DNA of 33,852 nucleotides, from IMG/VR virus record IMGVR_UViG_3300031758_000292, positions 1 to 33,852 of that record; one strand, written 5' to 3'. Numbering within the stretch: the stretch's first letter is position 1; each line of letters opens with the position of its first letter. Made by a program: the position numbers and the translations under genes. The notes beneath the pieces were generated by a model. It was not told where the DNA came from. It made no database searches and saw nothing but the letters and a program-made list of their open reading frames with translations. Below are positions 27,604 through 33,194 of the stretch, piece by piece. This DNA comes from a virus.

Positions 27604-29217
27604 TTAAAGAGTTTCTAAACCATCTACGAGAATCTTACCGTAGAATTCTGGTCTTACGATTTTCTTTGCGTAACGAGTCATAACACCTCTACGTGGAGTA
27701 AAGTTGGTTGGGTCGTACACTAAAGGAGTCATAATCAATGGTACATAAGGTGCGTAAACTGCTCCAGTCTCGAAGAAGTTAGAACCTTTGAAACCTAACA
27801 AGATTACGTTTTCAGTCATGTAAGGGTTTTTGTAAACATCGTATCTGTTAGAGATTGAACCGATGTTAGTTACACCTGCTGCGAAAGTCAACGCATCTTT
27901 ACCAGGGTTTGCAGAGAATCCGTTCATTGATTCCAAAATTGTAGCTACGTTTGGAGAAACAACCAAGAAGTTTGCTCCACCACGCATAGTCAATTGGTGA
28001 ATTTTGTTAGATACTTTCTGCAATTTGATACCCAAAGTTTGGAACCAAGTATTCTTTTGGTAAGCCGAAGCAGCTGCTGCGTTAGAATCAATAGCGAATC
28101 CAGCACCAGTCCACTCATATCCTACTTTAGATGACCAGTATTCAGTTGTGAATGCGTTCTGCTGCAACATCTCAAGGATTTCCAAATCAATCTCCAAAGA
28201 GATGTATTCAGATAACATTTGAGTCAATTCAGCTTCTGCATCTACAGAGTGATATGCGTTCAAATCTTGCGCCAATTCAGGAGTCCAAATTGCCTTCAAC
28301 TTACGTGTTTTAGCAACGATAGGCTCTGATTTCAATTCCAATTCAATTTCTGGAATTGCCAAATCTGTTCCTCTATCTTCGAAATCACCACGAGAAATAT
28401 CAGTAGGTTGTACGTGATATGCCAATGATACACCAACAGTTGTAAGGTTAGATAAACCAGTTACAGATGCAACGAATTCAACATTTGAACCATTTTTAGT
28501 TGTGTATTGTGGATAGTATCCTGTTACAGAACCTGTTAATAAAGTTGGTTCGAAAGCTCTAACACCATTGAAATCAGCATCAGCTGGTAAAGCTACAACG
28601 ATTTTCTTCAATGTGTTACCTGCGAATGATGCAGAAACTGAACCAGAAGATAAATCATAATCGATATCAGCTAAAGATGCAGATGCAAAAGTAGCAGTGA
28701 TAGCAGCAGTAGCGTTGTTGATTGTATAACCAAAACGTCCTGCACCATAAAGACCTCCTTCTGGAGATTGAGTTGAACCTAGTTTGTTACCAGCTGGAGA
28801 TAAAGAATCTTTACCGAAAGTACCACTGTTACCAAACAAAGATGAACCTGTGAAATTTGGATTACCCGCTGGGTTAGTACCATATTTGAAGTCCATGTAG
28901 AAAATAAGACCTGATGGTAAGTTCATTGGTTGAACTGAAACGAATTCTTTCGCTGCAATAGAACCGAAGATACGTCTTACCAAAGGAAGAGCCACACCAG
29001 CCCACTCTTCAGAACCTGAAGAAGTACCAGTACGAGTTGCCTCATCCAATAATTGTTTAGCCTGGTTTTCTAACATTACTGCCATACCATGCTTTGTAGT
29101 TTCAGAACCTACTCCTTCAAGTAGACCTGTTCTTTCCCATTTGCCTTTCAAACCTCTGGTTTGCTCAAGCATCACGCTCTGTGGGTTCGCGCCGCTCATT
29201 AATTTTTTAATGTTCAT
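27604..29217 (-). CDS. 23: Major capsid protein, T4 gp23-like
   Basis: At 537 aa it is close to T4 gp23 (521 aa). Family landmarks are MAVMLENQAKQLLDEATRTG (near residue 45), WAGVALPLVRRIFGSIAAKE followed by FVSVQPMNLPSGLIFYMDFK (residues about 72-111), the ELELKSEPIVAKTRKLKAIW block (HK97-fold spine region), and NFLVVSPNVATILESMNGF near the C-terminus. It polymerises around the gp22 core into the prohead. T4 gp23 is trimmed by gp21 after a [I/L]-x-E sequence. Here MLE (Glu18) and LLE (Glu34) are candidate sites; which is used is unknown. It follows gp22 by 29 bases and ends in a strong terminator. Confidence 0.97.
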   Translation of the reverse strand: MNIKKLMSGANPQSVMLEQTRGLKGKWERTGLLEGVGSETTKHGMAVMLENQAKQLLDEATRTGTSSGSEEWAGVALPLVRRIFGSIAAKEFVSVQPMNLPSGLIFYMDFKYGTNPAGNPNFTGSSLFGNSGTFGKDSLSPAGNKLGSTQSPEGGLYGAGRFGYTINNATAAITATFASASLADIDYDLSSGSVSASFAGNTLKKIVVALPADADFNGVRAFEPTLLTGSVTGYYPQYTTKNGSNVEFVASVTGLSNLTTVGVSLAYHVQPTDISRGDFEDRGTDLAIPEIELELKSEPIVAKTRKLKAIWTPELAQDLNAYHSVDAEAELTQMLSEYISLEIDLEILEMLQQNAFTTEYWSSKVGYEWTGAGFAIDSNAAAASAYQKNTWFQTLGIKLQKVSNKIHQLTMRGGANFLVVSPNVATILESMNGFSANPGKDALTFAAGVTNIGSISNRYDVYKNPYMTENVILLGFKGSNFFETGAVYAPYVPLIMTPLVYDPTNFTPRRGVMTRYAKKIVRPEFYGKILVDGLETL

Positions 29218-29246: not shown

Positions 29247-30500
29247 TTATTTAATAATACCTGCTAATTTCTTAAATCTGTTAGCAAAATTAGCTGATTC
29301 ATTGATTACCGCTTTAGATTGAGCAGGTTTTGTAGATTTAACTGCTTTACTAGCGATACCTTCTGAAATAGCCTTTTTAGTTAATTTGTTAGAAGATGAA
29401 GTATATTTGAAATTCTCTGCTAATGTAGAGAACACTAATTTAACCTCTCTTACTGATTTTGTTCTATCCAAAGTTTCAATCACTTTCACTTTTTGTTCGT
29501 TAGTCATGTTATGAGCTCTGAATAATTTGTTTGCAAACAATAATTTGGCGTTCAATAAGTTCACCTCATTAATAGTTTTTTGAAGAGTTCTGATAGTTCG
29601 GTACGCCTCATTCAAGTCTTTCTTTAGAGATTCTGCCTTTGGCTCTTCTTCACTTGAACCATACTCATCTTCCATTTCTCTCAAGATTTCTGCTAAATCA
29701 ACCGTATCTTCATCTTCTTCTTCACCTTCGTTAGTTACCACTACTTTAGGGTCTTCACCTTTATCAGTACCTGCTTCTGAACCATCTGCTAAATTTTCGT
29801 TAGCTGGGAAAGGGTTTTCTTCGTATTCTTCTTCTTCACCTTCCATAGCTGGCTCTTCTTCATCACCTAACTGTGCTTCTAATTCTCTGATGATAGCTTC
29901 CAATCCCATTTCGTCTTCTTCTTCACCCTCCATTGGGTCTTCTCCAAAAGAATCTTCTTCACCACCAGCCATTGCCATTGGGTCTTCTTCTTCTGTTGCT
30001 GCGAAAGGGTCACCTTCTTCTTCACCACCGAATTCATCTGCACCACCAAATTCGTCTTCACCTTCTAATTCTGCTAATCTTGCTTTTAATTCAGCAATTT
30101 CTGCATCCTTATCAGATTCTTCTTCACCACCGAAGTCGAATTCATCTTCTTCGTTAATATCTGCTACTTTTTTGTAGTCAGTACCTGCTGCCTCTGGCTT
30201 ACCACTATCTTTCTTTACACCTACTGATAAATCAGTAATTGCATCGTAAGATGGATTTGCTCCAGGGGTTTCAGGGTATCCAGCATCTGATTTAGACCCG
30301 ATACCATCTGAACTTAATTCCTCGTCTACTTGTTCTGCATCATCTTCCATTTCTGCTTCTGCTCTCATCTTTTGAGATAAGATAGATTGAAGTCGTGGAG
30401 TAAATGCCTCTTCAAGCGCAAGTTTTGCGTTTGCTAAAGCGGTTTCTTTAACGGCTTTGGCATCAGCGATTGCTTCTTTCAATAATTTTGAATTTGCCAT
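29247..30500 (-). CDS. 22: Prohead core scaffold protein, T4 gp22-like, with expanded acidic region (417 aa)
   Basis: Residues 1-45 are helical and basic (MANSKLLKEAIADAKAVKET). Residues about 50-290 are a very acidic, low-complexity region of E, D, G and P (for example GEEDSFGEDPMEGEEEDEMG). The last 120 residues carry the gp22 signature: SLKKDLNEAYRTIRTLQKTI, then NEVNLLNAKLLFANKLFRAH and QKVKVIETLDRTKSVREVKL. In T4 gp22 forms the inner core of the prohead and is degraded by gp21. LLKE near residue 9 fits the [I/L]-x-E cleavage rule. It is longer than T4 gp22 (269 aa), mostly because of the acidic part. It has a 170-base leader and is cotranscribed with gp23. Confidence 0.92.
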   Translation of the reverse strand: MANSKLLKEAIADAKAVKETALANAKLALEEAFTPRLQSILSQKMRAEAEMEDDAEQVDEELSSDGIGSKSDAGYPETPGANPSYDAITDLSVGVKKDSGKPEAAGTDYKKVADINEEDEFDFGGEEESDKDAEIAELKARLAELEGEDEFGGADEFGGEEEGDPFAATEEEDPMAMAGGEEDSFGEDPMEGEEEDEMGLEAIIRELEAQLGDEEEPAMEGEEEEYEENPFPANENLADGSEAGTDKGEDPKVVVTNEGEEEDEDTVDLAEILREMEDEYGSSEEEPKAESLKKDLNEAYRTIRTLQKTINEVNLLNAKLLFANKLFRAHNMTNEQKVKVIETLDRTKSVREVKLVFSTLAENFKYTSSSNKLTKKAISEGIASKAVKSTKPAQSKAVINESANFANRFKKLAGIIK

Positions 30501-30670: not shown

Positions 30671-30859
30671 CTAAAGAAAACCCAAATCTTTTTGATTCTT
30701 TCTTATAGCTTTTTCTTTTTCTAATCTATTTTTAACGGATGGTTTAACAAATGTCTGCCGTTCTCTTAACTGCTCTACTTGTTTAATGTTCTGAACTTTT
30801 CTCTTATATTGTTTCAGAGCTAGTTCTATATTACCGTTTTTAATATCAATTATAATCAT
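30671..30859 (-). CDS. rpsU: Ribosomal protein bS21, phage-encoded (62 aa)
   Basis: MIIIDIKNGNIELALKQYKR, then KVQNIKQVEQLRERQTFVKP and SVKNRLEKEKAIRKNQKD follow bS21 from end to end: the 'I.V..ge.ie.AL+r+Kr+' helix, then the 'LR.RQ.F.KPS..R' segment that is characteristic of Bacteroidota bS21. Length fits (62 against roughly 60-70 aa). bS21 sits on the 30S platform by the 3' end of 16S rRNA. In Flavobacterium, bS21 together with bS6 and bS18 hides the anti-Shine-Dalgarno sequence. The gene lies 5 bases after the Dps-like gene, ends with TAG, is followed by a terminator and lacks any Shine-Dalgarno sequence. It could replace the host protein on ribosomes late in infection; that is inference. 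Confidence 0.9.
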   Translation of the reverse strand: MIIIDIKNGNIELALKQYKRKVQNIKQVEQLRERQTFVKPSVKNRLEKEKAIRKNQKDLGFL

Positions 30860-30864
30860 AATTA

Positions 30865-31236
30865 TTATTGATGATTTACTAATTTGTATTTTGTTCTATA
30901 TAACAGAGATACAACCGTATCAATATCGTTTTGTAACCAACTATCTTTTAATTTAGGATTTTGTCTTAATCTAGCTACCATATTACATAAAGTATCAAAG
31001 TATTTAATGATATTTTTAATATCATTATTTTTATCCAATGTTCCAATGCCAGATAATTGAATTAATCCTTCTTTACCCTGATATGTTTCTACTAACCCAT
31101 CAATCAATCCACCAATTGAATCATAGTAATCTCCCAATGCCAAATGAGCAGAATGAGAACCAATTCCTTTAACTCCTAAATGAAATGAGTGAGCTTGGGT
31201 TCTACTTTGTAATAATAATGATGCTAATTCTTCCAT
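30865..31236 (-). CDS. Minimal Dps-like ferritin-fold protein (123 aa)
   Basis: Residues 15-50 read AHSFHLGVKGIGSHSAHLAL, then GDYYDSIGGLIDGLVE. Aligned with E. coli Dps, HLGVKG fits HWNMRG, and the four ferroxidase ligands match at identical spacing: His19, His31, Asp46, Glu50 here for His51, His63, Asp78, Glu82 in Dps. The C-terminal half (IKYFDTLCNMVARLRQNPKL, then NDIDTVVSLLYRTKYKL) suits the last two helices. At 123 aa it lacks the N-terminal DNA-binding tail and is shorter than Dps (167 aa). Dps shells oxidise and store iron and can protect DNA. Six bases separate it from the gene upstream and five from bS21. Fold call is good; activity is unproven. Confidence 0.7.
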   Translation of the reverse strand: MEELASLLLQSRTQAHSFHLGVKGIGSHSAHLALGDYYDSIGGLIDGLVETYQGKEGLIQLSGIGTLDKNNDIKNIIKYFDTLCNMVARLRQNPKLKDSWLQNDIDTVVSLLYRTKYKLVNHQ

Positions 31237-31242
31237 TTATTT

Positions 31243-31680
31243 TTATGCTTTCCATTTCATTGCCTGCATTTTCTTACTCATGTCAGATGTTATTCCTCTT
31301 TCGGTAGCCTCATCATTCATTGCTTTGGTTGCAGTTCTTGTCAATTCCAATTCTAATTCTTGGTAATTAATATCTGGATCGTCTTTATATTGTTTTAATA
31401 TCCGTTGTGTATATGAATCGTTAACAAATGCAGTTATCCAAGCTGGTCCAATTCCAGTAGTAGAAACAATATCATTCATTCTACTAATAAACCCTCTGTT
31501 ACCATATAATTTTTTGTAAATATCTTTTAATGCTCTCTGTACTCCAACACTTCTACCATGATAATATGCATCGACATTATCGGCTAATTTACTAAAGAAC
31601 ATAGTAATAAACCCAAAGAATGCAATAGTGCCAAGTATTGCCAATAATCCTAGTTCATTCAAAGGTTCTTTTTGTGACAT
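31243..31680 (-). CDS. Small membrane-anchored protein (145 aa), paralogue of the gene right of gp21
   Basis: One membrane segment lies near the N-terminus (residues 10-28, LGLLAILGTIAFFGFITMFF). It is followed by a charged helical domain with GNRGFISRMNDIVSTTGIGP and VNDSYTQRILKQYKDD. The same order (hydrophobic segment, then KKFISDVTEYIEKNNGVN and VKSDYIQSLIKKVNND) occurs in the gene at 33196-33531 and its upstream extension, so the two are likely paralogues. T4 proheads start assembly on the inner membrane, so membrane proteins here could be head-assembly anchors; this is inference. It lies 12 bases after the 211-aa gene in the same operon. Confidence 0.7.
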   Translation of the reverse strand: MSQKEPLNELGLLAILGTIAFFGFITMFFSKLADNVDAYYHGRSVGVQRALKDIYKKLYGNRGFISRMNDIVSTTGIGPAWITAFVNDSYTQRILKQYKDDPDINYQELELELTRTATKAMNDEATERGITSDMSKKMQAMKWKA

Positions 31681-31692
31681 TATTTTTATATT

Positions 31693-32328
31693 TTAATATT
31701 TTGGACCCATATTACCTTTTGCCATAGAATCTGCCCAAATTTGGAACATCTTCTTTAAATCAGCAGGTAATTGTTTATCTCTAATGGATAGTTTTCCATC
31801 AGGTGAAATATGTGCGATTATTTTGTAATCACCATGTTGTTCTTCTGCTCTATTCCAAATAGTTAAACCATTTCCCATATAGCCAGAACCAATATCGTAT
31901 TTTTTAGCTTCTTGAATTGAACTTCTACCCAATCGTTGCTTCATAACTTCTTCAGATACATCAGCAATTTCAAAGTATCTACCCAATACATGACCCATAT
32001 CTTCGTACAATGCTTCTAATCTTTCTTCCTGTGCTTTTGCTTCAAGTGATTCTTTTTCGAATGCAGATTGTAATTTTTTCAATTCATTCATATTACGCTT
32101 AATTGTAACTCTATCGAACCAATCACCACCCTCTCTTAAAGTATATTCTTGTGCAGCATCTGCAATCCCACCTAAAGTTTCTGCAATAGTTCTGATGTCA
32201 GATTTTCTACGCATTCCCTCTCTATGCTGTCCATAGGTAGAAATAATTTCCAAAAAGTGTCTTTTCAACTCTGTTGGGAGTTGTTGAAGTTCTTCTGATT
32301 CTTTGAGTAAATTTTTTAAACGTATCAT
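31693..32328 (-). CDS. Possible internal head protein with capsid-targeting-like N-terminus (211 aa)
   Basis: The first ten residues, MIRLKNLLKE, resemble in length and ending the T4 capsid-targeting sequence (ten residues ending in hydrophobic-x-Glu) that sends internal proteins into the prohead and is removed by gp21. LKE followed by Ser would be the cut site. Residues about 20-150 are charged helices with coiled-coil character (RNMNELKKLQSAFEKESLEA). The C-terminal 55 residues are a separate compact unit: GSGYMGNGLTIWNRAEEQHG, then DYKIIAHISPDGKLSIRDKQ and LPADLKKMFQIWADSM. I cannot name a family. It starts 1 base after the 88-aa gene. Confidence 0.65.
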   Translation of the reverse strand: MIRLKNLLKESEELQQLPTELKRHFLEIISTYGQHREGMRRKSDIRTIAETLGGIADAAQEYTLREGGDWFDRVTIKRNMNELKKLQSAFEKESLEAKAQEERLEALYEDMGHVLGRYFEIADVSEEVMKQRLGRSSIQEAKKYDIGSGYMGNGLTIWNRAEEQHGDYKIIAHISPDGKLSIRDKQLPADLKKMFQIWADSMAKGNMGPKY

Positions 32329-32603: not shown

Positions 32604-33194
32604 TTAATTTAATTCTATTATAATTTCTCTCATTAAATCTTGTGATTTACACCACTTACCACATTCTTCTGCCATTTTAGCCCACTGCTTTGATTCATTC
32701 ATTGGTGCCATAAATGCTCCATGTGTGGATGGATTAGAAACGAAATCCCAACCAACCAATTCGAAATCTTCCTGAACCATTACGGTCCCATCTTTTAATT
32801 CCTTTACTGAACCTAATCCTCGTGATGAAATACCTAAACGGATATTATTTTTTAATAATTCTTTTAAGATATTACCAGATGGAGTTGAAAGAATTTCTAC
32901 TACACCACATACATCATCACCTTCCCAATAAATTTCTCTAATGTTGTGGGATACATTTTTTAAGTTGATAACAGGAGAATCTGGATGGTCCAACTCACCT
33001 AGCGCTCTACGTTCTTTAATAAGTTGTTTGTATTTTGCACATTCTCTTTCTAAAATTTCTCTAGGATAGCGTCTACCATTTTGATTAGCAGCACCTGCTC
33101 TTTGTAAGATGCCCTTTACCAAATATGTTCCATTTTCTTCTTGTTGAAGTTTTGCTTCAAACAAATGGGTTTCTATCAATAATCCTTTATTCAT
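32604..33194 (-). CDS. 21: Prohead core protease, T4 gp21-like
   Basis: A 196-aa protein. Family blocks are GILQRAGAANQNGRRYPREI, LGELDHPDSPVINLKNVSHN with His70, GVVEILSTPSGNILKELL, IRLGISSRGLGSVKEL with Ser123/Ser124, and WDFVSNPSTHGAF with Asp150. These fit the His-Ser-Asp arrangement of phage prohead serine proteases of the T4 type. It sits inside the prohead, cuts gp22, gp23 and internal proteins after [I/L]-x-E, and then degrades itself. LIE at residues 6-8 could be a self-cleavage site. It starts 1 base after the membrane protein gene and lies two transcripts upstream of gp22 and gp23, with five unrelated small genes in between. Confidence 0.95.
   Translation of the reverse strand: MNKGLLIETHLFEAKLQQEENGTYLVKGILQRAGAANQNGRRYPREILERECAKYKQLIKERRALGELDHPDSPVINLKNVSHNIREIYWEGDDVCGVVEILSTPSGNILKELLKNNIRLGISSRGLGSVKELKDGTVMVQEDFELVGWDFVSNPSTHGAFMAPMNESKQWAKMAEECGKWCKSQDLMREIIIELN

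Follow-up and report, generated by a model that had tools for sequence, protein, structure and literature searches.

The DUF5856 proteins (PF19174), which Pfam lists as a family of unknown function and RefSeq names as a transcriptional regulator, are a phage-specific Dps-like branch of the ferritin-like superfamily. They keep an intact four-residue Dps-type ligand set, and they are not Dps proper. The member considered here is encoded in a virus record (IMG/VR record IMGVR_UViG_3300031758_000292, positions 1 to 33,852), the whole 33,852 nucleotides of which are called the window below. It is fairly probable that this protein is a minimal, Dps-like, iron-oxidizing head protein of ferritin fold, with a metal site between subunits, that protects the phage DNA. 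The placement of the family also gives meaning to matches in virion proteomics that had been left as a regulator or tied to an idea about iron and the tail, and phages may carry their own iron-chemistry protein together with their DNA.

Ligand residues and reach of the family

The gene and the codons of its candidate ligand and family-specific residues are as follows.

30865..31236, minus strand: Dps-like protein (DUF5856 / phrog_858 / T4 rI.-1 family), 123 aa, ATG start
31180..31182, minus strand: codon of His19, aligned with E. coli Dps His51, end of helix A; invariant in 238/238 rows
31144..31146, minus strand: codon of His31, aligned with Dps His63, start of helix B; invariant in 238/238 rows
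31099..31101, minus strand: codon of Asp46, aligned with Dps Asp78, helix B; invariant in 238/238 rows
31087..31089, minus strand: codon of Glu50, aligned with Dps Glu82, helix B; invariant in 238/238 rows
31189..31191, minus strand: codon of His16, an extra near-invariant His one turn ahead of His19; 237/238 rows
30919..30921, minus strand: codon of Asp106, helix D, family-specific; 238/238 rows, Glu in two Aeromonas phages (L403, L404)

This reading frame had initially been annotated as a small Dps with His19, His31, Asp46 and Glu50 at the ligand spacing of E. coli Dps. The frame is real, and the residues at 19, 31, 46 and 50 read H, H, D and E. When the protein was shuffled 400,000 times, H-x11-H-x14-D-x3-E appeared in 103 of the trials; the pattern is thus uncommon, and by itself not decisive. 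Decisive is the conservation of the four ligand residues throughout the family, which settles the reality of the pattern.

The aligned rows were drawn from 336 loci with a profile hit, after removal of six short hit segments from five loci (two of these, L173 and L175, are still counted through their main hits). The 333 sequences, 237 of them distinct, made 238 rows together with the window and fell into 43 clusters under 70% identity, each with one representative; the window sequence is itself one of the loci (L001), so that the 238 rows hold 237 distinct sequences, and 234 over the window's columns. Among the loci listed by the scans, all four ligands are invariant, in 238/238 rows and 43/43 representatives, as the initial reading would have it; the invariance of the His residues is to be taken with caution, since the loci were found by short peptide patterns, some of them including these His, before confirmation by tblastn. 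The same four residues are invariant in 11/11 rows of a T4-like set taken from annotated records, the window included. A33, Y38, G54 and D106 are likewise invariant in the 238 rows and H16 is kept in 237, while G54 and D106 vary among some T4-like phages.

The claimed spacing of 12, 15 and 4 held in part. The His-Asp spacing of 15 and the Asp-Glu spacing of 4 are fixed in 238/238 rows, but the His-His spacing is 12 in only 79, being 9 in 136 and 13 in 23, so that the exact 12 holds for some clades only; the A-B loop takes up the difference in length. The position four residues after the second His (residue 35) is Gly in the window and in 29/43 clusters and Asp or Glu in 4/43, and it is Asp or Glu in T4 rI.-1, in RB49 and in gp108 of Klebsiella phage ValerieMcCarty03. 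In Dps this position holds the fifth ligand, Asp67 in the E. coli protein.

Membership in the family is clear for the window protein, which scores 49.5 bits on the DUF5856 model (gathering cut-off 34.6) and matches, at E<=1, no other Pfam model, Ferritin/Dps models included; among PHROGs it matches phrog_858, 'starvation-inducible transcriptional regulator' (E 7e-17). T4 rI.-1 (MobD.6) reaches 114.5 bits on the same Pfam model and bears that same name in RefSeq. The model also matches 70/70 members of one alignment (A4) at E<=0.1, and gave a signal, below the cut-off, in 1/14 control genomes (Bacillus subtilis).

The family is widespread in phages. By tblastn the window protein found 353 of 50,697 phage records, and a member from a Klebsiella phage found at least 1,424 of the same 50,697. 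Five pattern scans of viral contigs returned at least 80 loci in four cases and 6 in the fifth; at most the best 80 loci are listed for each, and the counts are thus not totals. A scan of 84,980 bacterial and archaeal genomes with two patterns taken from alignment A3 produced 46 candidates, and the 3 that were confirmed sit on contigs of 4-8 kb. In alignment A1, conservation was too low along every stretch for a pattern scan. One member (L337, IMGVR_UViG_638276010) is split across two reading frames, related phages carrying intact copies.

Relation to Dps

How is the family related to Dps? The single window sequence matches no Ferritin/Dps model at E<=1; the homology emerges only with profiles. 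A phmmer search of the PDB with the window protein alone yielded no significant match, the weak ones being two SSM1 entries (0.09-0.1), CAIP (0.11, in a segment that shows the Dps motif) and HP-NAP (0.27). With a profile of 70 diverse members run against the PDB sequences, HP-NAP was found at E 1.3e-5 with both His, the Asp and the Glu aligned, CAIP, which has the Dps motif, at E 7e-4, and Dps proteins from E 0.014 upwards. Most entries below HP-NAP were Dps proteins; a de novo designed protein stood fifth (E 0.0039), ahead of most of them. Comparison of the DUF5856 profile with that of eight Dps sequences (E. coli Dps and seven from phage records, one of them, L413, an unverified fragment) gave a probability of 96.8 and E 2.7e-10 over 121 columns, with the ligands in register, and the best of 21 decoys (the reversed profile and 20 column shuffles) reached E 0.077. 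The T4-like subset (11 rows, window included) still matched Dps at E 2.3e-6 over 64 columns. The kinship with Dps that the initial annotation proposed is thus supported.

The predicted structure agrees with it. AlphaFold, run as a monomer on the 70-row alignment, gave a four-helix bundle (mean pLDDT 96.4, pTM 0.89) with helices at 2-21, 27-56, 73-90 and 99-121. The bundle that the initial reading called for is thus predicted, and the best PDB structure matches are Dps proteins. The best 50 of 497 Foldseek matches in the PDB (E<=10) are all Dps or ferritin-like, the first at E 5.2e-3; none lies at E<=0.001, so that Foldseek alone is too weak and the case rests on the profiles and the invariance. 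In VIA the Z score was 14.0 for MsDps2 and 13.0-13.3 for E. coli Dps, with 121 residues matched at 2.4-2.5 A; values of about 13-14 are within reach of helical bundles without kinship. A model of the T4 branch (pLDDT 90, about 57 in the first ten residues) resembles YciE/YciF (Z 14.9) no less than Dps (Z 14.4).

Within the model, His31 and Asp46 lie 15 residues apart on the continuous helix 27-56, or about 22 A in one chain as reckoned from the helix rise, and can hardly share a single-chain site. Both being invariant, the metal site would be common to two subunits, as in Dps, and the protein would assemble into a dimer or a cage.

The likeness to Dps and HP-NAP thus lies in the four-helix fold and in the arrangement His-x(8, 11 or 12)-His-x14-Asp-x3-Glu, in register with residues 51, 63, 78 and 82 of E. 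coli Dps. The differences are several. The window protein has 123 residues, against 167 in Dps, and belongs to a separate Pfam family. Helix A begins at residue 2, so that the protein is indeed a minimal form without a DNA-binding tail, as had been proposed; a Lys-rich N-terminal DNA-binding tail is present in only some Dps. Gly stands at the Dps Asp67 position, no helix of four or more residues lies between 56 and 73 in the model, where the BC helix would be, and DUF5856 has a conserved His16 and Asp106. The BC helix of Dps sits at the dimer interface. Since this protein lacks the BC helix and has no ligand at the fifth position, the original name 'Dps' should read 'Dps-like', while profile, fold and ligand register uphold the rest of the identification.

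These differences lend some weight to another reading, in which the protein is an internal head or structural protein of ferritin fold whose His, Asp and Glu bind a structural metal such as Zn or stabilize a dimer, with no ferroxidase activity. The fifth ligand is lost in most clusters, the BC helix is absent, Dps chemistry does not account for the invariant or near-invariant His16, Tyr38 and Asp106, and virions have yielded members of the family (see below). However, the residues kept are the Dps iron-ligand set, in exact register, throughout the family, and we consider this reading unlikely. As an iron-oxidizing protein, the window protein would have ferroxidase activity.

Canonical Dps proteins also occur in phages (Lactobacillus, Streptomyces, Campylobacter and gut phages). 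They resemble DUF5856 in bringing ferritin-like ferroxidase ligands into phage genomes and differ in forming a separate sequence family; an E. coli Dps query found 141 records of the phage collection, a few of which resemble host fragments.

Structural matches of the model in BFVD include proteins of two giant viruses of eukaryotes, Fadolivirus (A0A7D3V608, E 1.4e-4) and Pithovirus LCPAC404 (A0A481ZC29, E 5.7e-4), both with a TM of about 0.8. Weaker matches (E 0.02-0.1) are proteins of 333-763 aa named 'Prohead protease', which may, to judge from the models, be Dps-like domains fused to head proteases.

Genomic place

Most of the window is a long minus-strand block of T4-type structural genes, in which the neighbors of the gene are as follows.

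32604..33194, minus strand: prohead protease gp21 (Peptidase_S77), E 1.7e-29
31693..32328, minus strand: 211-aa protein whose start, MIRLKNLLKE with L-x-E, resembles a capsid-targeting and cleavage sequence, which it may be; similar starts in the relative G001
31243..31680, minus strand: likely membrane protein, 145 aa, hydrophobic N-terminal stretch, no family match
30671..30859, minus strand: ribosomal protein bS21 homologue (PF01165, E 2.4e-13)
29247..30500, minus strand: acidic 417-aa protein at what would be the place of the gp22 scaffold, no confident family match
27604..29217, minus strand: major capsid protein gp23 (PF07068, E 2.3e-76)

The frame begins 6 bases after the 145-aa frame and ends 5 bases before bS21. 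Ten further window proteins were scanned and include a tail sheath, a tail tube, a tail-fibre-like protein and a head-tail adaptor, the other six having no match. All 5 long relatives of the window have the gene between gp21 and gp23. Among the best 80 close loci, gp21 was found in 70, an 88-aa frame in 72, the 211-aa frame in 77, the gp22-like protein in 73 and gp23 in 65, counts that are lower bounds because of contig ends; the neighbors are always in the same order and on the same strand. The place in a head operon that was first noted is therefore conserved. Of the immediate neighbors named at that time, gp21, the likely membrane protein and bS21 are present in the window, but the membrane protein is not conserved (10/80, by the same lower-bound count) and bS21 is found in 58/80.

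Elsewhere the surroundings change. In a podovirus-like clade the DUF5856 gene follows the portal gene in 78/80 loci listed. In RB49, two other T4-like phages and those large-phage records in which a head gene was found, it lies about 20 kb or more from gp21 or gp23. T4 rI.-1 adjoins rI and tk, and its frame overlaps rI by 4 bp. This overlap, together with a report that overexpressed rI.-1 slightly delays the collapse of lysis inhibition (Golec et al., 2010, as described in the available part of PMC6832632), speaks for a lysis-timing accessory, as proposed for T4 rI.-1, in which the fold would be a relic. In two large clades, however, the gene adjoins head or portal genes and not rI; RaK2 has an rI.-1 homologue but, according to the available text of the RaK2 paper, no homologue of rI, rI.1, rIII or t; and the ligands are invariant. 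That the protein is a lysis-timing accessory is accordingly very improbable. For the handling of iron or peroxide during lysis that the initial annotation put forward, the overexpression result is no more than an indirect hint.

The window gene would be expressed late. A T4-type late promoter was looked for, and the coding strand of the window has no TATAAATA. The same letters occur 11 times within 1441-27548 of the window (8.35 expected, no excess), always with the minus (coding) strand reading TATTTATA, and 7 of the 11 lie within 60 bases upstream of gene starts, a zone that makes up 5% of the window. It is possible from these positions that TATTTATA is a promoter box of this phage lineage; none lies ahead of the DUF5856 gene.

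Virion association and function

An outline of the favored mechanism, that of an iron-oxidizing head protein, is as follows. In a pair of subunits, one would contribute His19 and His31 and its partner Asp46 and Glu50 to a joint iron site. This inter-subunit site would oxidize Fe(II), as in Dps. The protein, produced together with the head proteins, would become part of the virion and there guard the DNA, whether packaged or freshly injected, against damage by free iron and peroxide.

The initial annotation had guessed that the protein may be packaged with DNA, and DUF5856 members in the virion proteomes of phages from two families support this. In CsCl-purified virions of ValerieMcCarty03 and 04, a 'starvation-inducible transcriptional regulator' (gp108 and gp100) was detected with 26 and 27 PSMs, above the 15 PSMs that the authors took as a natural break (PMC13119998, available part). 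The gp108 gene (OR106137, 52451-52837) matches DUF5856 at 117.6 bits, and gp100 is the same-named gene of the same size beside rI in OR271596. An RNA ligase and a DNA helicase also passed the cut-off, and 153 and 135 proteins had at least 2 PSMs (PMC13119998, available part), so that carry-over is possible. Likewise, gp217 of Salmonella phage Sajous1 was found with 10 spectra in CsCl-purified virions and modeled as a ferritin by Phyre2, with the authors' warning that low counts may be contaminants (PMC10892097, available part). Its locus (MW021757, 154947-155300) has 97.7% DNA identity to the Maynard locus and matches DUF5856 at 100.3 bits. This 'ferritin' of Vi01-like phages is thus like the window protein in family, proposed fold and detection in virions; it differs in that its authors place it in a tail 'ferrojan horse' idea, an iron-based entry route for which, in the part of the paper available, dependence on TonB or FeoB was not found in the host tested (PMC10892097). 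Taken together, these data make it probable that phages of at least two families carry the DUF5856 protein in their virions.

An alternative is that the same Dps-like ferroxidase acts in the infected cell, controlling iron and peroxide during replication, and that its presence in virions is incidental. Dps has been reported in Lactobacillus phages (PMC6669764) and in gut phages, where phage Dps was proposed to raise the tolerance of the host to oxidative damage (PMC8008677). Host dps is among the most strongly induced genes in Yersinia infected by phage YerA41 (PMC7354516), which suggests that iron and peroxide control may matter during infection. The T4 gene lies beside rI and tk, and the available text of the RaK2 paper names the rI.-1 homologue, gp015, only under lysis and host interaction and not among the structural proteins detected by MS. 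On the other hand, the 26 and 27 PSMs in the ValerieMcCarty virions exceed the authors' break (PMC13119998, available part), the gene of the window clade lies among head genes, and many relatives carry a start like that of a capsid-targeting sequence (CTS). An infected-cell role is possible, though rather doubtful.

The evidence for such a start in relatives is as follows. In 49/333 sequences an ATG lies 8 or more residues ahead of the domain, and at any such ATG the start M-x(1-3)-[FY]-x-[DEST]-[FILV] occurs in 22/26 large-phage, 5/6 T4-like and 0/17 other rows. A like rule on six genomes fits 80 of 1,243 frames at any of the first three ATGs, and 48 by the first ATG, both counts including DUF5856 genes and spurious frames. 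Since the loose pattern allows any upstream ATG and 80/1,243 frames fit, the tag is suggestive only, and the matching rows, being homologous and in some cases nearly identical, make no independent test of it. A strict CTS pattern has five matches in four large-phage records, and four of these matches are the DUF5856 gene; G001 and RB49 have no match. According to a review of T4 heads, residues 4 and 7 of the ten-residue tag matter most for targeting in T4, and an Asp at position 10 prevents processing and not targeting. In ValerieMcCarty03, MKTYKEFITE and MKTYQEFLNE are the starts of proteins annotated as internal virion proteins, and MKFNDFVKD is that of gp108. The DUF5856 starts of many relatives are thus suggestive of the T4 sequence.

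The window protein, which starts at helix A, lacks such an extension. In this it differs from the internal CTS-carrying head proteins of T4, and its clade, with the gene between gp21 and gp23 and no tag, differs from T4 rI.-1 and other DUF5856 proteins. Packaging in this particular phage would hence need another route, such as direct contact with the scaffold.

A broader proposal is put forward tentatively, as something that may well prove wrong: DUF5856 would be a family of virion-borne small Dps-like proteins across tailed phages including T4. Its members would be ferroxidases packaged in the head, many lineages using a capsid-targeting start of T4 type for this, and would enter the cell together with the genome, so as to suppress Fenton damage ahead of any phage gene expression. 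If this is true, T4 rI.-1, so far regarded as an accessory of lysis inhibition or a 'starvation-inducible transcriptional regulator', becomes the model member. Laboratory sublines of T4 differ by a frameshift at rI.-1 Glu61 (PMC8573959, available part). By count on the T4 sequence this residue is the ligand Glu, and rI.-1 looks dispensable in the laboratory. As the family occurs in T4 as well as in so many phage records, existing genetics allow the question of a head-borne iron-oxidizing protein to be put to the test in the best-studied of all phages. A literature search by name found no paper naming DUF5856, and the literature searched held none linking T4 rI.-1, Dps ligands and the virion; the ferritin fold was proposed earlier for one DUF5856 protein, the family name being absent from the available part of that paper (PMC10892097).

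Two further observations concern targeting sequences. Three proteins of the close relative G001 (loci L358-L368) start M[IL][KR]L[KQ][DNS]LLKE, in which an L-x-E site resembles the cleavage sites of T4 gp21, and one of them is encoded two genes upstream of the DUF5856 gene, as is the 211-aa protein at 31693-32328 of the window; this motif is a candidate capsid-targeting sequence of the lineage. In a 634-kb phage (W01; loci L378-L397, also L338-L357), 28/489 frames fit a loose pattern of CTS plus cleavage site, scored at one of the first ATGs without a shuffled control, a count that would fit the targeting of many proteins into the heads of large phages.
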